Shown here: positions 36,446 to 50,617 of the stretch, piece after piece
Numbering within the stretch: position 1 is the first letter of the stretch
How the letters are laid out: every line of letters starts with the position of its first letter
Assembly (NCBI GenBank): GCA_036268055.1
Contig: DATAUW010000017.1
Coordinates: forward strand, 124,001 to 188,000
Length of the DNA stretch: 64,000 nucleotides
From: Verrucomicrobiia bacterium
Lineage (GTDB): Bacteria; Verrucomicrobiota; Verrucomicrobiia; Limisphaerales; Pedosphaeraceae
Reading direction: 5' to 3'
Notes under the pieces: model-generated
Database searches by the model: none
What the model was told of the DNA's origin: nothing
What the model saw: the letters and a program-made list of their open reading frames with translations, nothing else
Position numbers and translations under genes: made by a program

Positions 36446-36568
36446 CCCGTCCGGGCTTGCGCCAACTGCTGGAATGCGGTGAGTGGATAAGCTTTTCACG
36501 ACACCGCCCGGCGCGGGAATTTTGGATTTGATTTTCCAAGGCATTTCCTGTCTTTTACGGGCGGTTTG

Positions 36569-38689
36569 ATGCGGAAAATATCCTTCACCTCGGTGTCGCG
36601 GCTGGTTGCGCTGATTCTGCTCGTGACGCTGGTGTGGTGCGTTGCGCGTGACCGCATGTCGGCAGAGAACTGGCGCGTTCCGGTGGATTATTTCGGCGAC
36701 TCGCCGCAAGTTTTGGGTTGGATAAAAGCTGCTTCTGAGGGTGATTATATTCCGTTCGGGCCCGCCACGATCACCCGGTTAAATGCGCCGTATCATGCCG
36801 ATTGGAATGATTTTCCCATGTACGAACGCGCGCTCATTTTCGCTCTTGGGCTCGTGGCCAAAGCGGTGGGAATTTTCACGGCGGGGACGGTTAGTGTTTT
36901 ATTGGGGCACATTCTCTCCGCCGTTTCATTTTATCTTTGCTGCCGTTTTTTAAAGCATTCCAAAATCTGGTCGTTCGTCGGCGCCGCGCTTTTCTCATTT
37001 ACCTATTATCATTTTTGGCGGGGGCTGGGGCATTTGCTATTGGCGTATTCCTACACCTTGCCGTGGGCGATGCTGAGTTGCTGGATGATCGTTTCGAGCA
37101 AACGGCTCCGCATGGGAAATTCGCTGGCCTGGATATGTTTCATCACGGCATTCGTGATGGGCGTAAGCAATCCCTACAATCTGAACATCTATGTTCAGTT
37201 GCTTGGCTTTAGTGTCCTGATCGAGTATCTCCGGCGGGGGCGAACGGAAAATATAAAGGTGGGATTGGTGTCCGTAGCCATAGCGGGCGGCGCGTTCATC
37301 GCGATCAATTCCGGCACGCTGCTGTATCACTTTCTCCACGGGCAAAATCCCGCCGCCATGGACCGCCATTATTTCGAGGCGGAATTGTACGCCTTGAAGC
37401 CGATGGAATTTTTTATTCCCCCGCCCACGCATAACATCGCCGCGCTGGCAGAAATTGGAAATTTTTATAGGGCTTCGGCCTATCTTAAAGGCGAAATCTT
37501 TTCACCTTATTTGGGGATCATCGGCATTGTGGGCCTGATCTGGCTATTCACGGAAACTTTTATTGCGCTGGCGCGGAATCTGAAGTCGTCCAAGCCGTTT
37601 CCGCCGTATGCGGTGCAAACGGTATGGATCATTTTCTACTCGGTGGTCGGCGGGATTAATTGTGTCATCTCGCTTTGTGGCATCCAGCTTTTTCGCGGCA
37701 CGAACCGTTACAGCATTTTTATCTCGACGATTATTTTGATGTTCCTTGTGGCTCGAATGTCGGCATTAAGCCGGAAGTGGTCGCAGGGAGCAAATATCGT
37801 TTTTGCGGGCCTGGCTTTGCTAATTGGAATTTTTGACCAGGTGCCGCGTCCGACGGCGCCGGAAGACACGATTCATATCGAGAAAGTCGTGGAAGCGGAC
37901 AAAAATTTTGGGCGTCAAATGGAGGCAAAACTTCCGCCGCGTTCGATGGTCTTCCAGCTTCCCGTAATGAGTTTTCCCGCCGCCGGTCCGGTGCTTGAAG
38001 TTCAAGGACATGACATGTTGCGTCCTTATCTGGCGACAAGCACACTTCGGTTTTCGTTTGGCGCCATACGCGGACGCAACCGTGAAGCGTGGCAGTGGGA
38101 AGTTGAAAAGATGCCAGCAGCGGAAATGATCAGCACTTTGGAACGCTATGGCTTTGGCGCCATTTACATCAATCGCCGGGGCTACGCGGATCAAGGCGAA
38201 GGGTTGCTCCACCAATTTGCCGCCGCCGGACGCGCTCAAATCATCGAGGATGATATTCACGAACAGGTTTGCGTCGTTTTGAAGCCGTCTCTCACTCCTG
38301 AATTTCCGCATACGGATGACCGGGCGCAGATTTTGTTTAAGAAAGGGTGGGCGGTGAAAGAGTTCAGTCCGATTGACGCCCGGGAATGGACCGGCGGCGA
38401 TGCCACGCTTACCTTTTTCAGCGAGGCACACCAAGCCGCCAGTTACAGGCTAACATGTGTTATCGGCAGCATCGCGCCACGACACGTGAGCATGGTGATG
38501 AACGGACGGGAACTTTGGAGTTCGGACATTGACGCAGGCCAGGGTGCGCCTGTGGATATAAGCGTCGTGGGTCATCACGGCAACAATACAATCGAGTTAA
38601 AAACGGACGCACCCGCTAGCCGTGTCAAAGAAGCTCCATTGCCGCTCGCCTTCACGATCGTCAATTTGCAGATAACCCGGCAGCCATAA
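36569..38689 (+). CDS. Polytopic membrane protein, GT-C/YfhO-like
   Basis: 706 residues from the ATG at 36569 (a TTG three bases earlier is in frame). The N-terminal 430 residues contain about ten membrane helices with acidic residues in the first outer loop (YFGDSPQVLGWI and HADWNDFP), the pattern of GT-C glycosyltransferases that use lipid-linked sugars on the periplasmic side. The C-terminal 270 residues form a soluble domain. It lies 105 bp upstream of the CDP-sugar operon on the same strand, and together with the 912-residue protein at 50618 it brackets the polysaccharide genes. It is likely a sugar transferase or membrane glycan-modifying protein; direct family assignment is uncertain. 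Confidence 0.7.
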   Translation: MRKISFTSVSRLVALILLVTLVWCVARDRMSAENWRVPVDYFGDSPQVLGWIKAASEGDYIPFGPATITRLNAPYHADWNDFPMYERALIFALGLVAKAVGIFTAGTVSVLLGHILSAVSFYLCCRFLKHSKIWSFVGAALFSFTYYHFWRGLGHLLLAYSYTLPWAMLSCWMIVSSKRLRMGNSLAWICFITAFVMGVSNPYNLNIYVQLLGFSVLIEYLRRGRTENIKVGLVSVAIAGGAFIAINSGTLLYHFLHGQNPAAMDRHYFEAELYALKPMEFFIPPPTHNIAALAEIGNFYRASAYLKGEIFSPYLGIIGIVGLIWLFTETFIALARNLKSSKPFPPYAVQTVWIIFYSVVGGINCVISLCGIQLFRGTNRYSIFISTIILMFLVARMSALSRKWSQGANIVFAGLALLIGIFDQVPRPTAPEDTIHIEKVVEADKNFGRQMEAKLPPRSMVFQLPVMSFPAAGPVLEVQGHDMLRPYLATSTLRFSFGAIRGRNREAWQWEVEKMPAAEMISTLERYGFGAIYINRRGYADQGEGLLHQFAAAGRAQIIEDDIHEQVCVVLKPSLTPEFPHTDDRAQILFKKGWAVKEFSPIDAREWTGGDATLTFFSEAHQAASYRLTCVIGSIAPRHVSMVMNGRELWSSDIDAGQGAPVDISVVGHHGNNTIELKTDAPASRVKEAPLPLAFTIVNLQITRQP

Positions 38690-38794: not shown

Positions 38795-39568
38795 ATGAAA
38801 GTTGTTATCTTATGCGGTGGTTTGGGAACGCGGTTGCGTGAGGAAACGGAATTTCGCCCCAAGCCGATGGTGCCGGTCGGCGAGCGGCCGATTCTCTGGC
38901 ATATCATGAAAATTTATGCCCACTTCGGGTATAAAGAATTCATCCTGTGCCTCGGTTATAAGGGCGATATCATCAAGGATTATTTTCGCAATTATCAATG
39001 GAACACCAGCGACGTCACGCTCAAGCTGGGTGCGCGTCCGCAGATCAAATATCATAATCAGCACGCCGAGGAAGATTGGTCGGTCACGCTGGTTGACACT
39101 GGTCAGACCACCCAAACCGGCGGACGCCTCAAGCGCGTCCTGCCGTATATCAATGGCGACACGTTTTTGCTGACTTACGGCGATGGCTTGATCAATAGCG
39201 ACATCAACAAGTCGGTCGCGTTTCATAAAAAGGCCGGCAAGATCGCGACGCTCACCGCCGTTCAACCCGCGAGCCGCTTCGGCGATTTGTCCATCAAGGG
39301 AAATCTCGTCACGGAGTTTCGCGAGAAGGCAGCGCGCCAGGCGAATTTCATCAACGGTGGATTTTTCGTGATGGACAAGCGCATCAGCAAATATTTGACG
39401 GATGACAAATGCGTCCTCGAACAGGGCCCGCTGAACACACTGGCTGACGCAGGCCAGATGGCGGCCTATACGCACAGTGGGTTCTGGCAGTGCATGGACA
39501 CTTATCGCGAGCAGCAGTTACTCACGGAGATGTGGAACTCCGGCAATGCTCCCTGGAAAATCTGGTAA
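38795..39568 (+). CDS. rfbF: Glucose-1-phosphate cytidylyltransferase
   Basis: 257 residues. It makes CDP-glucose from CTP and glucose 1-phosphate, the first step to CDP-linked deoxysugars. The nucleotidyltransferase signature CGGLGTRLREET, the RPKPMVPVG lysine segment, then FILCLGYKGDIIKDYF and the metal-site LTYGDGLINSDI are typical of RfbF/DdhA. It opens a five-gene run in which the next gene starts one base after this stop (TAAaATG). Confidence 0.95.
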   Translation: MKVVILCGGLGTRLREETEFRPKPMVPVGERPILWHIMKIYAHFGYKEFILCLGYKGDIIKDYFRNYQWNTSDVTLKLGARPQIKYHNQHAEEDWSVTLVDTGQTTQTGGRLKRVLPYINGDTFLLTYGDGLINSDINKSVAFHKKAGKIATLTAVQPASRFGDLSIKGNLVTEFREKAARQANFINGGFFVMDKRISKYLTDDKCVLEQGPLNTLADAGQMAAYTHSGFWQCMDTYREQQLLTEMWNSGNAPWKIW

Positions 39569-39569
39569 A

Positions 39570-40667
39570 ATGTTTAACGGCTTTTACCACGGCAAACGCA
39601 TTCTGGTCACCGGCCACACGGGTTTCAAAGGCGGCTGGCTTTCCCTGTGGCTCAAGCAGCTTGGCGCGGAAGTCTGGGGCCTGAGCCTGCCTGCGCCGAC
39701 GCAGCCCAGCCTGCACGAAATCATTTCGCCAAGCGTCTTCGCCGGGGAAATCATCTGCGACATTCGCAACCTGGAATCGCTCGCCGCCGCCGTCAAAAAA
39801 ATCCAGCCTGAAGTCATTTTTCATCTTGCGGCACAACCGATCGTTCGCCTTTCCTATGCCGAGCCGCTGGCGACCTTTCAGACCAACGCGCTCGGCACGG
39901 CCAATCTTCTCGAAGCCGTCCGCCAATGCGAATTGCCCTGCGCGGTGATTGTCATCACCAGCGACAAATGCTACGAGAATCGTGAATGGGAATTTGCCTA
40001 TCGCGAAAACGATCCGCTCGGTGGACATGATGTTTATTCGATGAGCAAGGCGGCGACCGAACTTGTCGCGCAATCGTGGAATCGCTCGTTCTTTTTGCCG
40101 AACGCGAAGCTTGGGCCGGTCGTCACCGCGCGCGCGGGCAATGTCATCGGCGGCGGAGATTACGCGCTCGATCGCATTCTGCCGGATTGCATCCGCTCGC
40201 TGATCGAGAAGAAACCGATCCTTGTTCGTAATCCTTCGGCGGTGCGTCCGTGGCAGCACGTTCTCGAATGTCTCAGCGGTTATTTGTGGCTCGCCGCTTT
40301 GCTGACGCGCGCGGGGAAATCCTCGAAGCTCGCGACGGCGTTTAATTTCGGCCCGGAAAATTCCGCGCGCCAGCCAGTGCGCAAATTGGTCGAGGAAGTT
40401 TTGTCGGTGTGGCCGGGCGAATGGATTGATGGCTCGAATCCGAATAGCGTTCACGAAGCCACGCTACTGACACTCTCGATTGAAAAAGCGAGCGCGTTGT
40501 TGCAATGGACGCCAGCTTGGGATTTCAAAGAAGCCGTGGACCGGTCGGTCGAATGGTATCGCCAGCGTCACGCGGCGAAAAATCCTGATATGTTGCAATT
40601 CAGCGCGGCGCAGATCGAGGCTTACACCGAATCCGCGCGCCGCAAAAAATCCGCGTGGGCGAATTAA
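39570..40667 (+). CDS. rfbG: CDP-glucose 4,6-dehydratase
   Basis: 365 residues from the ATG at 39570; an upstream open stretch inside rfbF is not coding. The enzyme converts CDP-glucose to CDP-4-keto-6-deoxyglucose with bound NAD. It is an extended SDR: the NAD motif VTGHTGFKGGW is close to the start, YSMSK provides the catalytic Tyr-x3-Lys, and ITSDKCYEN gives the acid/base region. It is followed after one base by the methyltransferase gene. The absence of rfbH (the 3-dehydratase) next to it means the usual 3,6-dideoxyhexose branch is not encoded here. Confidence 0.95.
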   Translation: MFNGFYHGKRILVTGHTGFKGGWLSLWLKQLGAEVWGLSLPAPTQPSLHEIISPSVFAGEIICDIRNLESLAAAVKKIQPEVIFHLAAQPIVRLSYAEPLATFQTNALGTANLLEAVRQCELPCAVIVITSDKCYENREWEFAYRENDPLGGHDVYSMSKAATELVAQSWNRSFFLPNAKLGPVVTARAGNVIGGGDYALDRILPDCIRSLIEKKPILVRNPSAVRPWQHVLECLSGYLWLAALLTRAGKSSKLATAFNFGPENSARQPVRKLVEEVLSVWPGEWIDGSNPNSVHEATLLTLSIEKASALLQWTPAWDFKEAVDRSVEWYRQRHAAKNPDMLQFSAAQIEAYTESARRKKSAWAN

Positions 40668-40668
40668 C

Positions 40669-41898
40669 ATGAGTTTTCATTTTCAATGCCGCTCCTGCCA
40701 AAGCACGCACGGCAAACTGATTCTCGATCTGGGCATCCAGCCGCTTGCGAACAATTTGCTGCGCCCGGAAGACCTCTCGCGTCCCGAGCCGCGCTTTCCG
40801 TTGCGGCTGGCGGTGTGCGAGAGTTGCTGGCTGTTGCAGATCGTGGATCTCGTGCCGCCGGTGCAACTGTTTTCCGAGTATCTTTATTTTTCCTCCTTTT
40901 CGGATTTAATGCTGCGCCATGCGAAGCAAGCGGCGGAGCGATACGTGAAGGAATTTGATTTGGGCGCGAACAGTCTCGTCACTGAAATCGCCAGCAACGA
41001 CGGCTATTTTCTGCAATATTTCAAAGCGGCGGGCGTGCCATCGCTGGGCATCGAACCTGCCGAAAACATCGCGAAGGTCGCGCGCGAAAAAGGCATCGAA
41101 ACGCTCGTCGAATTTTTTACGAAACAACTCGCAGCCAAGCTTGCGGCTTCGCAACGCCAGGCGGATTTGATTCTGGGCAATAATGTTTTTGCGCACGCGC
41201 CGGACACGAACGATTTTGTCGCCGGCCTTGCCGCGGCGTTGAAACCGAAGGGCCGGATCATCCTGGAATTTCCCTACGCGGCGGATTTCGTGGAGAAGAC
41301 GGAATTCGATACGATTTATCACGAGCACGTTTTTTATTTCAGCGCGATCGCGTTGAAACCGCTGTTTGAACGGCATGGTCTCACAATTTTTCATGTCGAG
41401 CGTTTGACGATTCATGGCGGGTCGCTGCGGCTTTTTGCGTGCCATGCGGGAGCGCATCCGATTCGCGCGTCTTTGAATGCACTACTCGCGGAAGAAACCA
41501 AGAAGGGTATGCCGTCGCTCGCGTGGTACGAGGGTTTCACCGAAAAAGTGCTGGAGATAAAAAAGTCTCTATGTGAATTGCTGGCGGATTTGAAGCGGCA
41601 GAAAAAGACCATCGCCGCTTATGGCGCGTCGGCCAAAGGTAGCACACTATTGAATTTTTTTGGACTTGATCATCAGATTCTGGATTTCGCCGCCGACCGC
41701 AGCACTTACAAGCAGGGCCGCCTGACTCCGGGGACGCACATTCCCATCGTTGCGCCGGAAAAGCTTTTGGAGCAGCAGCCGGATTATACGTTGCTGCTGA
41801 CGTGGAATTTTGCGGACGAAATTCTTGATCAGCAAAAGGCGTATCGCGAACGCGGCGGCAAGTTCATCATTCCGATTCCGAAAGTCACGGTCGTGTGA
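40669..41898 (+). CDS. Sugar C-methyltransferase (TylC3/NovU type)
   Basis: 409 residues from the ATG at 40669. The N-terminal zinc site (CRSCQSTHG with later CESCW), the SAM-binding EIASNDGYFLQYF, the active-site segment TIYHEHVFYFS and a C-terminal Rossmann-like domain (AAYGASAKGSTLLNFF) are the three parts of nucleotide-sugar C-methyltransferases. They add a methyl branch at C3 or C5 next to a keto group. The substrate here is presumably CDP-4-keto-6-deoxyglucose from RfbG. Start and stop are each one base from the neighbouring genes, so all are translated together. Position of methylation is inferred. Confidence 0.9.
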   Translation: MSFHFQCRSCQSTHGKLILDLGIQPLANNLLRPEDLSRPEPRFPLRLAVCESCWLLQIVDLVPPVQLFSEYLYFSSFSDLMLRHAKQAAERYVKEFDLGANSLVTEIASNDGYFLQYFKAAGVPSLGIEPAENIAKVAREKGIETLVEFFTKQLAAKLAASQRQADLILGNNVFAHAPDTNDFVAGLAAALKPKGRIILEFPYAADFVEKTEFDTIYHEHVFYFSAIALKPLFERHGLTIFHVERLTIHGGSLRLFACHAGAHPIRASLNALLAEETKKGMPSLAWYEGFTEKVLEIKKSLCELLADLKRQKKTIAAYGASAKGSTLLNFFGLDHQILDFAADRSTYKQGRLTPGTHIPIVAPEKLLEQQPDYTLLLTWNFADEILDQQKAYRERGGKFIIPIPKVTVV

Positions 41899-41899
41899 A

Positions 41900-42436
41900 A
41901 TGAAATTTTCGCGCACAACCCTCGAAGGTCTTTGGCTGATTGAGTTGGAGTTGCGCGAGGATGAACGCGGTTTTTTGGCGCGGACTTATTGCGAAAACGA
42001 ATTCGCCGCGCTTGGCCTAAACACGCGCTGGCCGCAATGCAACCTTACCCGCACGAATACGCGCGGCATGCTGCGGGGCATGCACTTTCAAGCTGAGCCC
42101 AAACCGGAAATCAAATTGATCCGCTGCTGCGCCGGCGCGATTTTCGACGTGCTCGTGGATGTGCGCCGCGGTTCCCCGACGTTTGGAAGATGGGAGGGAT
42201 TCGAATTGACCGGCGAAAATCGCCGCACACTTTATGTGCCCGGCGGTTTCGCGCACGGCTTTCAATGCCTCGCGGATGGCTGCGAAGTTTTTTACCAGAT
42301 GTCTGAATTCTACGTGCTTGAATTCGCGCGTGGCCTTCGCTGGAACGATCCCCAGGTGAACATAAAATGGCCAGTCGCGAACCCGATGCTTTCCGTGCGC
42401 GACCAAAATCTCCCGCTGCTCTCGGCTCTCGCGTGA
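41900..42436 (+). CDS. rfbC: Nucleotide-sugar 3,5-epimerase (RfbC-like)
   Basis: 178 residues from the ATG at 41900. A cupin-fold epimerase of the RfbC family: RGMLRGMHFQAEP holds the catalytic His, IFDVLVDVRRGSPTFG and YVPGGFAHGFQ are core strands, and the Tyr in VFYQMSEFY completes the usual set. dTDP-4-keto-6-deoxyglucose is the textbook substrate, but the CDP-sugar genes suggest a CDP-4-keto sugar here. Its stop overlaps the start of the next gene (GTGA). It could epimerise C3, C5 or both after methylation. Confidence 0.88.
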   Translation: MKFSRTTLEGLWLIELELREDERGFLARTYCENEFAALGLNTRWPQCNLTRTNTRGMLRGMHFQAEPKPEIKLIRCCAGAIFDVLVDVRRGSPTFGRWEGFELTGENRRTLYVPGGFAHGFQCLADGCEVFYQMSEFYVLEFARGLRWNDPQVNIKWPVANPMLSVRDQNLPLLSALA

Positions 42437-43326
42437 AAATTCTGCTCACTGGCGCCACGGGATTCATTGGCTCGAATTTTGCGCGAGCGGCGATTGCGCG
42501 CGGGCATCAAATCGCGGGGCTGATCACGCCGGGCCGCGCGATTCCCGCGGACCTGGATGCGAATAAAAACTTTACCTGGTTGCGCGGAACTTTGGACGAT
42601 GCGCCGTGGCGGGACATCGCGAGTTTTCACGCGGATACCTGCGTTCACTCGGCGTGGATAACGACACCAGGCGTTTACTTGGAGTCGCCGGAAAACTTTC
42701 GTTTTCTCGAAAGCAGCTTGGATTTTCTCCGGCGCGCCCGCGAATGCAACATCCGGCACGTTGTCGGTATTGGAACCTGCATCGAATACAAAATCAGTCA
42801 CAAAAAGCTTTCCGAAGATACTACGCCGCTCGCGCCCGCGACGACTTATGCCCGCTGCAAAAATGATTTGCGAATCGCGCTCGAAGCCGAGGCCGCCGCG
42901 AACAATGATTCGCTCTGCTGGGCGCGGGTATTTTATCCTTACGGTCCGGGCGAACATCCATCGCGCCTGTGCAGCTCCATCATCCACAAACTTTCGCATA
43001 AGGAAAAAATCGTCCTTAAAACGCCCGGCAGCACCAAGGATTACATCTACATAGACGATCTCGCGACGGCGTTACTGGCGGTCGTCGAAAAGAAGCTCCA
43101 CGGGCCGATCAATCTTGGAACTGGCATCGGCATCAGCGTGCGCGAAATCGCCCGAGGCATCGCCGAGTTGCTCGATAAGCCCGCGCTGGTCGAAGAACTC
43201 GGTCCGCCGGAGATGGATCCACTCGGCTATGTGGTGGCGGATGCGAGCAAGCTGCACGCGCTTGGGTGGCGTCCGGCGTTTGGGTTGGAACGGGGACTTA
43301 AAGCACTCGTGTTAGCGCGAAAGTGA
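42433..43326 (+). CDS. NAD-dependent epimerase/dehydratase (extended SDR), probable 4-ketoreductase
   Basis: 297 residues from the GTG at 42433, which shares four bases with the rfbC stop. It has the NAD motif LLTGATGFIGSNF, YARCK as the Tyr-x3-Lys pair, ARVFYPYGPGEHPSRL and YIYIDDLATALL. As the last gene of the CDP-sugar run it most likely reduces the 4-keto group to give the finished sugar, as RmlD-like or Tyv-like enzymes do. The extended SDR family also includes epimerases, so the exact reaction is inferred. Confidence 0.88.
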   Translation: MKILLTGATGFIGSNFARAAIARGHQIAGLITPGRAIPADLDANKNFTWLRGTLDDAPWRDIASFHADTCVHSAWITTPGVYLESPENFRFLESSLDFLRRARECNIRHVVGIGTCIEYKISHKKLSEDTTPLAPATTYARCKNDLRIALEAEAAANNDSLCWARVFYPYGPGEHPSRLCSSIIHKLSHKEKIVLKTPGSTKDYIYIDDLATALLAVVEKKLHGPINLGTGIGISVREIARGIAELLDKPALVEELGPPEMDPLGYVVADASKLHALGWRPAFGLERGLKALVLARK

Positions 43327-43406
43327 TTTGTTTGATAACGGAATTTCCCGTTTGAACTTGCAAAAAAATCTTGGTTCATTCAGTATGGAGTGAATTAAGG
43401 AAGAAC

Positions 43407-44213
43407 ATGTTTTCAGGCCTTGGAACACGAAACGCACACGAGAAAGAAATCGGGAATGGGGGGTTCACGCTTATAGAGTTGCTGGTAGTTATTGCTATCA
43501 TAGCTATTCTCGCGGGCTTGTTACTCCCGGTATTGGCGCAGGCAAAAAGCAAAGGGCGAGAGATTACCTGCCTTAACAACGTAAAGCAGTTACAAGTAGC
43601 CTGGACTCTTTATATCACTGACAATAGTGACGCCTTGCCTGAGAACAAGTCTTCCGGGGCGGGGACATTGGGCGTGGGCGGACCTCCGGGCACATGGGTA
43701 CTGGGAAACGCGAAATCCAGCGCGGTCATCACCAATTTACAAAGCGGCACGCTATATCCCTATACTCCCAACATCGGGGTTTATCATTGTCCTTCAGATT
43801 TATCCACGGTGGTTAATCCGGCTACGGGCGCCAATACGAGCGTGGCACGCATCCGCAGCTATGCGATGAGCGCTTTTCTGAATGGGCTGATCACCGCCGA
43901 CCTTCCCGCCGTGGTCACAAAGTTTCAGCAGATCCGCCCGGATACGTCGCAGGTGTTTGTATTTCTTGATGAGAGTGAAGGCAGCATAGACGATGGGTAT
44001 TTTTTTACTTATCGCAGCCCGAATAATTCGTGGGTGAATCTTCCGGCAAATCGGCATAATCAAGGCGGCAATTTTTCTTTTGCGGACGGCCATTGTGAAT
44101 TATGGAAATGGCGTTATCCAAAAATTTTTATCAATATTGGGCAAACCGCCGCGAACCAGGCTGACATCATGGACTTGCGCCGGGTGCAGGCAGCTTTCGC
44201 GGATCCGCCATGA
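43407..44213 (+). CDS. Prepilin-type protein with H-x9-DG motif
   Basis: 268 residues from the ATG at 43407, chosen because AAGGAAG (43397-43403) is well placed; a TTG at 43371 is in frame. [10 protein letters not shown] and a hydrophobic helix form the prepilin signal, [12 protein letters not shown] follows, and the C-terminal [12 protein letters not shown] is an exact H-x9-DG. It is the third such gene in the window. It lies 80 bp after the sugar operon but has its own leader. Like the others it is likely exported and processed; it may belong to the surface layer rather than a pilus. Confidence 0.85.
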
Positions 44214-47564: not shown

Positions 47565-48473
47565 CTATCTAATCCAACCGTATTTGCCGCGCCACCAATC
47601 CCGGATGCCGCGGTAAATGCCCACGGAATTTTTCCAGCGAAATAAAATTGCGAAAAGCGCCATCTTGATGGGTGAAACGACCAGGATGTGAATCCAGATG
47701 GTGAAAGGATAGTATCCGACCTTGTGGCGCTGGAGCAGATATAACTGGTTGCGCGTGCTGTAATGGAGTTGCACCGGGCGATTTTTTGCGAGGGTAGTTC
47801 CCGTTTTGTGCCACATCTTCGCCGCCGGGATATATAGCACTTTGTAGCCAGCCTCGCGAAAACGGTAGCACAACTCCGCGTCTTCAGAATAGAACACGAG
47901 GTCTTCCTTGAAGAAGCCGATTTTTTTGAGAACTTCGCAGCGCAGGAGATATCCGCAGCCGGTGACGTAATCACATTCGCGGACTCGGTCGTAGCGCGCA
48001 TTGTCTTCGCGTTCCCAGCCTAAATGGCGGGTGTGTCCGTGAAGCGGATTGATGACTCCGCCGGCATGCCATAGAACGGTGGGGCGATCGTAAAAATAAA
48101 TCTTGGTTCCCAATACGCCGGCTTGGGGATTTTTTTCGGCATAGTCCACCAAGACATTGAAAATCTCGGGATCCACTGTCACGTCATTCGTTGTGCTGAA
48201 AATGTATTTGGTTTTGTCCACGAGAAAAGCCATGCCCAGGCTGGCGGCGCGGGCGTAACCTTGTTCTTCCTCGTGCGCGAGCAGGTGGACATCGGGAAAA
48301 AGCGTGCGCACCATTTCCTGCGCGCCGTCCGTGGAGGCATTGTCCGAGACGACGATGGTGACGGAGGGATAATTTATTTTTTTGAATGACTCGAGCGTGG
48401 CGCGAAGCGAATCTTTCAAATTGTGATTCACGATCACGACTCCGACTGGCGGTTTGTTTTGAGCGGCATCCAT
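47565..48473 (-). CDS. Glycosyltransferase family 2
   Basis: 302 residues from ATG at 48473 (a TTG nine bases earlier overlaps the previous stop). GVVIVNHNLKDSLRATLES, VVSDNASTDGAQEMV, a DxD-like TTNDVTVD and the acid-rich FYSEDAELCYRFREAGYKV are GT2 marks, closest to rhamnosyl- or WcaA-like transferases. The C-terminal 45 residues are hydrophobic and could hold it at the membrane. It follows the second GT2 and a methyltransferase in a three-gene unit. Donor and acceptor are unknown but are likely part of the same surface glycan as the CDP-sugar. Confidence 0.9.
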   Translation of the reverse strand: MDAAQNKPPVGVVIVNHNLKDSLRATLESFKKINYPSVTIVVSDNASTDGAQEMVRTLFPDVHLLAHEEEQGYARAASLGMAFLVDKTKYIFSTTNDVTVDPEIFNVLVDYAEKNPQAGVLGTKIYFYDRPTVLWHAGGVINPLHGHTRHLGWEREDNARYDRVRECDYVTGCGYLLRCEVLKKIGFFKEDLVFYSEDAELCYRFREAGYKVLYIPAAKMWHKTGTTLAKNRPVQLHYSTRNQLYLLQRHKVGYYPFTIWIHILVVSPIKMALFAILFRWKNSVGIYRGIRDWWRGKYGWIR

Positions 48474-48478
48474 GGGGT

Positions 48479-49384
48479 TCAAATGTCATTGACCGGCAGA
48501 GGGCCGGTGATGCCCGCCAGGCCGTGACGCAAGCCCTTGAAGGCATGGCGAAGCTTGGCGGATTTGTCGTGCTCGAAAACTATGATCTTGGTCAGGTCCA
48601 GGCACAGCCATAAAAAATCTTTTATCACCCAAAACGGAAATGCGACGGCGTAACGCCGATACATTATCACGCGGTTGCGCATAATGTAATAGCGGCGCAC
48701 CGCGTTATGAGAGGTGATGGTAATGGGAAAACCCAGGAATGAATAGGCTTCCAGTGAGCCGAGGTGATGGAGCAAGCCGGAGCGGCAGGAACGAATCAAT
48801 TTATAACCCTGCTGCCAGAGGCGCAGGCAGAAATCGAAATCAACGTAATCAATAAACATCGCCTCGTCATACAAACCAGTTTTGAGAAACGCGCTGGCTT
48901 TTATGAGGCTGCCCGACGTCATGGCGGCGAGAATATGCGAGAAACTTCCGCTCGCGCGACCGGATTTTTTGCGTTCCCATTCCCGCTCGGAAACGCAATG
49001 AACGGGTGAAATAAGAGCCACGTCAGCTTTAAATGGACACGATTCGTAGGCGACAAACATGCTTTGAATTAAATCGGGCGTGGCGGTGCTGTCCTGATCG
49101 AACGTGGCGACCCATTCGTAACCGGCAGCCTCGGCGTAGCGGATGCCTATATTCAAAGCGGTCGCGATGCCGAGATTTTTACCATTGCGTATCACTTTTA
49201 CGCCGGGAATTTTTTCGAGTTGTGTGAGGAGGATTTCGCATTTTGGCGCGGAGCCATTGTCAACAATGACAATTTCCGCGACCTGCGGACGCAAGCGTTC
49301 CACGTTTTCAGCCAGGGATAATTGAGGATGGTAACTGACAATGATTGCGCAAACCCGATTTGGTTTAGGCGCGGCGAGTTCCAT
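48479..49384 (-). CDS. Glycosyltransferase family 2, rhamnosyltransferase-like
   Basis: 301 residues from ATG at 49384, sharing four bases (ATGA) with the upstream methyltransferase stop; the open frame farther upstream is out-of-frame methyltransferase sequence. VCAIIVSYHPQLSLAENVE, IVIVDNGSAPK, NLGIATALNIGIRYA and TFDQDSTATPD (DxD-type) together resemble dTDP-rhamnosyl transferases of O-antigen loci. FIDYVDFDFCLRLWQQGYKL is the acceptor-base region. The C-terminal helices are hydrophobic. Substrate inferred only. Confidence 0.9.
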   Translation of the reverse strand: MELAAPKPNRVCAIIVSYHPQLSLAENVERLRPQVAEIVIVDNGSAPKCEILLTQLEKIPGVKVIRNGKNLGIATALNIGIRYAEAAGYEWVATFDQDSTATPDLIQSMFVAYESCPFKADVALISPVHCVSEREWERKKSGRASGSFSHILAAMTSGSLIKASAFLKTGLYDEAMFIDYVDFDFCLRLWQQGYKLIRSCRSGLLHHLGSLEAYSFLGFPITITSHNAVRRYYIMRNRVIMYRRYAVAFPFWVIKDFLWLCLDLTKIIVFEHDKSAKLRHAFKGLRHGLAGITGPLPVNDI

Positions 49385-50421
49385 CAGTTGCCTTCTTTCG
49401 CGCAAATCAGCACCGCTTCTTCGCCGCAGTCGGGTTGGGTGCGCAGTCGGGAGTTTTCGCGGTATTGGAGCGCGATGGTTTTGAGAATGCGCGCGGGATT
49501 GGGGCGCGGGTGGGCGTCGGTGCGATGATCGGCGGAATCGCGAATGGAAAAGCTGCCGCCGATGAAAATATCGGCATTGGCGGCGGTGCTCAGGGTGTTG
49601 ACGACCTTGAGATTTGTCCGGCGCGCGCATTCGGCCAGGGTCAGGAGCGAATAGATGTTGAGGTGGCGTGGTGGGTCTATTCCAAACCAGTAGCCTTTGA
49701 ATTTCTCGTGGCCGAAACTTCCGTTGTTCGGCGTGGTCACGACCAAACGTCCGCCGGGTTTCAGGATGCGGCGCGCTTCGGTGAATAAGGCCAGCGGATC
49801 GGGCACGTGCTCGATCACATGGCTCATGGTGACGGCGTCGAAGGAGTTGTCGGGAAATTTTGCGCTGGCGAGGTCGCCGCGATGCAAATCCAAGCCGTAA
49901 ATGCTTTTCGCATTGGCCACGGCTTTGGCATCGAAATCCACACCGGCGACGGACCAGCCGAGTTGCCGCATGCGATGGAGAAATTTTCCATCGCCACAGC
50001 CAACGTCCAAAACTTTCCCCGGTTTCAGATCGTCGAGGAACATGAGGGTCATGCGCTTTTTCGCAGCGCCCAATCCGGTCAACGCGGCCGGGATGCTTTG
50101 CAAGCCTTGATAGAGCGAATAAAGGGCGCTGCGAAGTTTTGCGGCAAACGTGGGCTGGCCATCTTCAGCGCCGTGCGTGAAATAGGTTTGGTAGGCGAGA
50201 TGCAAATCGGCCTCGATGGGCGCGGGGTCAAGCCAGACCAATCCGCAATTCGTTTGCGGACATTTTTTGTGGCTCCAAAGTCCCGGGGTGCCGAAGTAGG
50301 GATCGCCGAGGTCATGATAAAGTTCTTTGCCGAGGGAACCGCAGAGCAGGCAGTGGGGACGCGCCGCGGTTCGGATTTGATTTTGGCCGGCTTGCATGAA
50401 ATTAATCGGGCGAACCGGCAT
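49384..50421 (-). CDS. Class I SAM-dependent methyltransferase with zinc-ribbon N-terminus
   Basis: About 345 residues; ATG at 50421 chosen, with others at 50397 (ATG) and 50457 (TTG). A short Cys pair region (CLLCGSLGKE and KKCPQTNCGLVWL) precedes a class I Rossmann fold with VLDVGCGDGKFLHRM (motif I), AGVDFDA, and FDAVTMSHVIEHVPDP (motif IV). Such proteins are common in polysaccharide loci, methylating sugars or capping chains. It starts the three-gene unit with two GT2 genes and diverges from the 912-residue membrane protein. Confidence 0.88.
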   Translation of the reverse strand: MPVRPINFMQAGQNQIRTAARPHCLLCGSLGKELYHDLGDPYFGTPGLWSHKKCPQTNCGLVWLDPAPIEADLHLAYQTYFTHGAEDGQPTFAAKLRSALYSLYQGLQSIPAALTGLGAAKKRMTLMFLDDLKPGKVLDVGCGDGKFLHRMRQLGWSVAGVDFDAKAVANAKSIYGLDLHRGDLASAKFPDNSFDAVTMSHVIEHVPDPLALFTEARRILKPGGRLVVTTPNNGSFGHEKFKGYWFGIDPPRHLNIYSLLTLAECARRTNLKVVNTLSTAANADIFIGGSFSIRDSADHRTDAHPRPNPARILKTIALQYRENSRLRTQPDCGEEAVLICAKEGN

Positions 50422-50617
50422 TTTCAAAATGCCGTTGCGGGTCAACTTCGCGCGCAAAGGCCGCGCGGATATTTGAAGCCGGTTGGAACATGGGAGGCGA
50501 GGCTAGGGGCGGATGCGCGTTCCTACAACCCCAAAATAATGCGTTTGAAAACGCCCGGCCAATGGATATTTTAGCATCCATTGTATTGTAACGATCGGGT
50601 CATAAAAAGCAACCCAG

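Follow-up and report, generated by a model that had tools for sequence, protein, structure and literature searches.

A five-gene operon predicted to make a CDP-activated, C-methylated 6-deoxy sugar in a Verrucomicrobiia bacterium

The DNA analyzed here, referred to as the window, is a 64,000-nucleotide stretch of the genome of a Verrucomicrobiia bacterium. Direct reading of the DNA located an operon of five genes at 38795-43326 on the plus strand, in the order rfbF, rfbG, C-methyltransferase, RmlC-type epimerase and SDR, with gene-to-gene spacings of 1, 1, 1 and -4 bp, exactly the order and spacings given in the initial annotation of the sequence. The genes of the operon and the reading frame directly upstream of it are as follows.

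36566..38689, plus strand: 707-aa membrane protein, possible glycosyltransferase, directly upstream of rfbF; link to the cassette uncertain
38795..39568, plus strand: rfbF, glucose-1-phosphate cytidylyltransferase (TIGR02623, 366 bits, cut-off 300)
39570..40667, plus strand: rfbG, CDP-glucose 4,6-dehydratase (TIGR02622, 463 bits, cut-off 278)
40669..41898, plus strand: SAM-dependent sugar C-methyltransferase of the TylC3/MtmC/KijD1/TcaB9 family (PF08421, 76 bits; PF08484, 203 bits)
41900..42436, plus strand: RmlC-type epimerase (PF00908, 209 bits; TIGR01221, 180 bits, cut-off 156)
42433..43326, plus strand: SDR with a GTG start, predicted 4-ketoreductase (PF01370, 110 bits; a broad family, without equivalog assignment)

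TIGR02623 and TIGR02622 are NCBI equivalogs, and both cut-offs were passed. The rfbG product contains both the SDK motif and YxxxK, and the catalytic His62 and Tyr132 of the epimerase are kept across 59 aligned sequences. The SDR, whose GTG start overlaps the epimerase stop by 4 bp, carries GxxGxxG and YxxxK (Tyr139, Lys143), both kept in 19/19 aligned sequences. Base composition in the operon region is the same as elsewhere in the window and thus gave no sign of recent import. The 707-aa upstream protein returned no Pfam family match and was rejected as a dedicated glycosyltransferase, since it is absent as a recurrent neighbor in related loci. Directly after the operon lies a gene for a prepilin-type protein (N_methyl, DUF1559-like; 43371-44213), and approximately 4 kb downstream, on the minus strand (47565-50457), are two family 2 glycosyltransferases and a SAM methyltransferase, which are possible users of the sugar.

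The source genome (5.1 Mb, 41 contigs, 96% complete) holds single copies of rfbF and rfbG (counting hits above cut-off), of the RmlC-family gene and of a C-methyltransferase of this family, and its sole RmlC-family gene is the one inside the operon. A role for this epimerase in rhamnose synthesis is unlikely, as its gene is packed among CDP-glucose genes and a C-methyltransferase. RfbH, recognized by a His replacing the PLP Lys, was sought among the DegT-family matches in the genome, which numbered six (two strong, four weak). The two strong proteins retain the PLP lysine (SFFGNKTITTGEGG and SFYPGKNLGAAGEGG) and are aminotransferases, not RfbH; the four weak matches are other PLP-fold proteins. 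RfbH was therefore not found among the DegT-family matches of this 96%-complete genome, in agreement with the earlier statement that rfbH is absent. The classical CDP-3,6-dideoxyhexose route thus appears unavailable and was rejected.

The nearest solved relatives of the C-methyltransferase among its PDB matches are 4rv9, deposited as D-mycarose 3-C-methyltransferase (which we take to be MtmC), 5t64, deposited as sugar 3-C-methyltransferase (presumably KijD1), and 3ndi (TcaB9), and solved homologs span nearly the whole protein. The hallmarks of TylC3/TcaB9-type enzymes are present, namely the zinc Cys4 domain, the SAM domain, the C-terminal domain and the catalytic Tyr/Glu/His; enzymes of this family require a 4-keto sugar nucleotide. 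A quick tree of 101 sequences, without bootstrap and built from loci that were sampled for their resemblance to either the window protein or that of A. vinelandii, contained one clade of 71 members (SH-aLRT 99) that comprises all 64 sampled members with rfbF nearby and seven without it, and excludes MtmC, KijD1 and TcaB9. The window enzyme falls inside this clade, adjoining a protein that is 75% identical to it and comes from a genome belonging to the same order, as does the single A. vinelandii enzyme. The state "rfbF nearby" changed 6 times on the 101-sequence tree versus 30.4 times in shuffles, with 0/500 shuffles as low. Zinc ligands Cys 7, 10, 50 and 53, together with Tyr73, Tyr217, Glu219 and His220, are invariant in the 71 clade members, and His176 is retained in 69/71.

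CDP-vinelose was reportedly described from A. vinelandii by Okuda et al. in 1967, and vinelose is 6-deoxy-3-C-methyl-2-O-methyl-L-talose. The A. vinelandii CA operon consists of rfbF, rfbG, epimerase, C-methyltransferase, hexapeptide transferase, SDR and CmcI-type O-methyltransferase (PF04989, 2e-93), and this genome carries a single rfbF and a single rfbG above cut-off and a single C-methyltransferase of this family. Taken together, the cassette and the CmcI-type gene account for every feature of vinelose: CDP activation, 6-deoxygenation, the 3-C-methyl group, the L configuration, the 4-hydroxyl and the 2-O-methyl group. Because its clade member is the only such C-methyltransferase in A. vinelandii, 3-C-methylation of vinelose should fall to it. 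The set is also present in A. chroococcum, where a flagellin-like reading frame lies close by. Among loci of the window clade, a CmcI-type gene stands beside the cassette in 10/18 and directly after the SDR in four, and the verrucomicrobial CmcI-type genes are 45-65% identical to those of Azotobacter. The source genome had no PF04989 match anywhere, so the product of the window operon should be the 2-O-demethyl form. Hausman et al. (1998), as cited in PMC3769361, reported rfbFGC in A. vinelandii; the open literature searched assigned no genes to CDP-vinelose, and open papers (subscription journals being outside the search) yielded no biochemical study of vinelose, CDP-linked C-methyl sugars or Azotobacter CDP branched sugars.

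On this evidence from sequence, the operon would in all likelihood produce a rare branched 6-deoxy sugar carried on CDP. The most probable product is CDP-6-deoxy-3-C-methyl-L-hexose with the talo or manno configuration at C4. Such a product is best read as the vinelose skeleton minus the 2-O-methyl group. In the proposed pathway, RfbF would convert glucose-1-phosphate and CTP to CDP-glucose, and RfbG would convert this to CDP-4-keto-6-deoxy-D-glucose; both steps are predicted from equivalog-level assignment. The C-methyltransferase, which most likely acts at C3 (family membership alone fits C3 or C5), would use the 4-keto group to deprotonate C3 and add the SAM methyl with inversion, as TylC3 does. 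C3 would then be quaternary and without hydrogen, so that the RmlC-type enzyme could act only at C5, where inversion would give the L series. Family, active-site and context evidence underlie these two steps. Methylation at C3 with inversion followed by C5 inversion would lead to an L-lyxo-4-ulose, whose 4-keto group the SDR would reduce to yield either the L-talo (vinelose) or the L-manno (3-C-methyl-L-rhamnose) form, and a glycosyltransferase would then transfer the sugar to surface polysaccharide or glycoprotein. The reduction step, the final stereochemistry and the acceptor are inferred. Weighing against this reading are the ambiguity between C3 and C5 methylation, a possible action of the epimerase on C3 alone or ahead of methylation, the placement of the SDR in a broad family only, and the absence from the source genome of the CmcI-type gene that completes the match to vinelose. 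The C-methylated CDP-6-deoxyhexose forecast in the initial annotation is the best-supported predicted product, given that RfbH was not found and that the methyltransferase belongs to a CDP-gene-linked clade.

The five functions of the operon are matched one for one by novobiocin NovV, T, U, W and S, among which NovU is a C-methyltransferase broadly similar in kind. By this parallel the methyltransferase would work at C5, as does NovU, and the RmlC-type enzyme would be a 3-epimerase, as is NovW, giving a noviose-like CDP-6-deoxy-5-C-methyl-L-hexose. The epimerase has NovW (2c0z) as one of its PDB matches, not near the top, but the methyltransferase's named relatives in the PDB act at C3 and the sole A. 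vinelandii gene of its clade should encode the vinelose 3-C-methyltransferase; we regard C5 methylation as unlikely. The same annotation had described the product as virenose- or vinelose-like, and of these the vinelose-like L-sugar fits an RmlC-type epimerase. A virenose-like D-sugar would require 3-C-methylation and 4-reduction with no C5 inversion, so that the epimerase would either have no part or work on C3 ahead of the methylation step. Virenose is 6-deoxy-3-C-methyl-D-gulose, and a TylC3-like enzyme has been proposed for its synthesis in Coxiella (PMC3539893). The precursor route proposed there, however, starts from GDP-mannose (PMC3539893, PMC3204966), and genes for a GDP-mannose-derived precursor were not found in the cassette, which contains a cytidylyltransferase and a CDP-glucose dehydratase instead. 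A D-product also has no need of the RmlC-type enzyme, whose catalytic His and Tyr are retained here and in the 59 aligned sequences, and a virenose-like product is accordingly disfavored as very unlikely.

It is highly improbable that the operon makes an unmethylated CDP-6-deoxyhexose, with the methyltransferase acting on another sugar or after transfer. In Campylobacter jejuni HS:41, the cytidylyltransferase, dehydratase, epimerase and reductase suffice for CDP-6-deoxy-L-altrose or CDP-D-fucose (PMC12369002), and in the window the methyltransferase is packed in the operon rather than fused. Every sampled cytidylyltransferase-linked C-methyltransferase nevertheless fell in one clade, and the genome offers no other CDP-glucose pathway to an enzyme whose family requires a 4-keto sugar nucleotide.

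Homologs of the C-methyltransferase at E 1e-60 were present in 47/387 genomes of the phylum and in 30/58 near relatives, the source genome being counted in both, and in 43/298 Pseudomonadaceae genomes (about 14%) when the A. vinelandii protein was searched at E 1e-80. At 70 verrucomicrobial loci, rfbF lay within 5 kb in 36 and rfbF, rfbG and the epimerase together in 21. The exact five-gene order, for which the initial annotation proposed a survey, recurs among these loci in at least six other Verrucomicrobiota genomes. In one relative whose locus is missing rfbG (L130), a copy is present on another contig. Pseudomonad loci contained rfbF, rfbG and the methyltransferase in 22/22 cases and the epimerase in 20/22, in the order rfbF, rfbG, epimerase, methyltransferase, and plasmid records, among them those of Rhizobium, Cupriavidus and Leisingera, carry related sets. 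Such cassettes are common, and parts of them were already on record for Azotobacter and Synechocystis; the window operon is a fresh example of a known, little-studied pathway. The earlier generalization that dTDP is the carrier on which most known C-methyl sugars are built is true of characterized antibiotic sugars, but genomes commonly carry CDP-linked cassettes. On balance we favor, with the odds somewhat on its side, the view that, in Verrucomicrobiota and Pseudomonadota alike, one C-methyltransferase clade, distinct from the antibiotic enzymes that work on dTDP sugars, is dedicated to CDP-4-keto-6-deoxyglucose, within a modular cassette whose last slot holds a ketoreductase or a PLP aminotransferase and which is the genetic basis of CDP-vinelose.

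Several variants of the locus were observed. At L133, L138, L143, L050, L182, L185, L186 and L188, a DegT-family protein occupies the SDR slot; where the motif is readable, the PLP lysine is kept (SFHGTK type), which predicts CDP-4-amino-4,6-dideoxy-3-C-methyl sugars. An SDR subfamily stands beside rfbF and the C-methyltransferase at L131 (918-1961), L044, L051, L054, L055, L088, L092 and L144; several of its members have an SSCSVYG motif and hence lack the usual Asp-Glu dehydratase pair, and in some loci the subfamily replaces rfbG. In Pseudomonadaceae (L118, L119, L170-L187), the cassette is often near a TPR glycosyltransferase and reading frames resembling flagellin, FlgL and FliD, and the sugar may therefore decorate flagellin there. 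In Synechococcus phage DSL-LC02 (L195, 4962-8156), genes for a GDP-mannose 4,6-dehydratase, for a distantly related C-methyltransferase (27% identity) and for a GDP-fucose synthase stand in succession, with glycosyltransferases after them; they may represent a GDP-linked, phage-borne route to a virenose-like sugar. An uncultured phage genome of 642 kb (L194, 6648-9251) encodes a sugar C-methyltransferase 36% identical to that of the window; rfbF, rfbG and an epimerase were not found within 8 kb of it.

For the window itself, this is an ordinary surface-sugar operon. The value of the analysis lies in the apparent CDP-linked methyltransferase clade and in having probably assigned the CDP-vinelose pathway: a gene set that is common yet unassigned is tied to a branched CDP sugar known for decades, and the CDP-vinelose pathway becomes directly testable through a handful of named genes. 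Since the only RmlC-family gene of the source genome lies in the operon, the analysis also carries a warning that rfbC-type genes annotated for rhamnose, for example in Synechocystis, can instead serve the synthesis of C-methyl sugars.

With the CDP-3,6-dideoxyhexose pathway (abequose, tyvelose) the operon has rfbF and rfbG in common and differs in that RfbH was not found here. MtmC, KijD1 and TcaB9 have the same domain architecture, zinc Cys4 site and Tyr/Glu/His active site as the window methyltransferase, but serve antibiotic pathways with dTDP substrates and fall outside the CDP-linked clade. For C. jejuni HS:41 it is proven that a 3,5-epimerase and a C4-reductase act on CDP-4-keto-6-deoxyglucose with no RfbH involved; its CDP-6-deoxy-L-altrose pathway shares the cytidylyltransferase, CDP-glucose 4,6-dehydratase, 3,5-epimerase and C4-reductase, whereas the pathway as described lacks a C-methyltransferase and has a pyranose/furanose mutase (PMC12369002). 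Synechocystis PCC 6803 groups rfbF, rfbG and rfbC with a putative C-3 methyltransferase gene as slr0983-slr0984-slr0985-slr1610, and deletion of its rfbC left rhamnose unchanged (PMC3769361, PMC12285223). Likened by literature description, this set has the same gene kinds as the window and differs in its order (methyltransferase after epimerase) and its ABC transporter genes. The A. vinelandii operon is 52% (rfbF), 44% (rfbG), 45% (epimerase) and 46% (C-methyltransferase) identical to that of the window, with an SDR in both; it differs in placing the epimerase before the methyltransferase, in its CmcI-type, TylF-type and PhyH genes, and in having a TPR glycosyltransferase as a neighbor.
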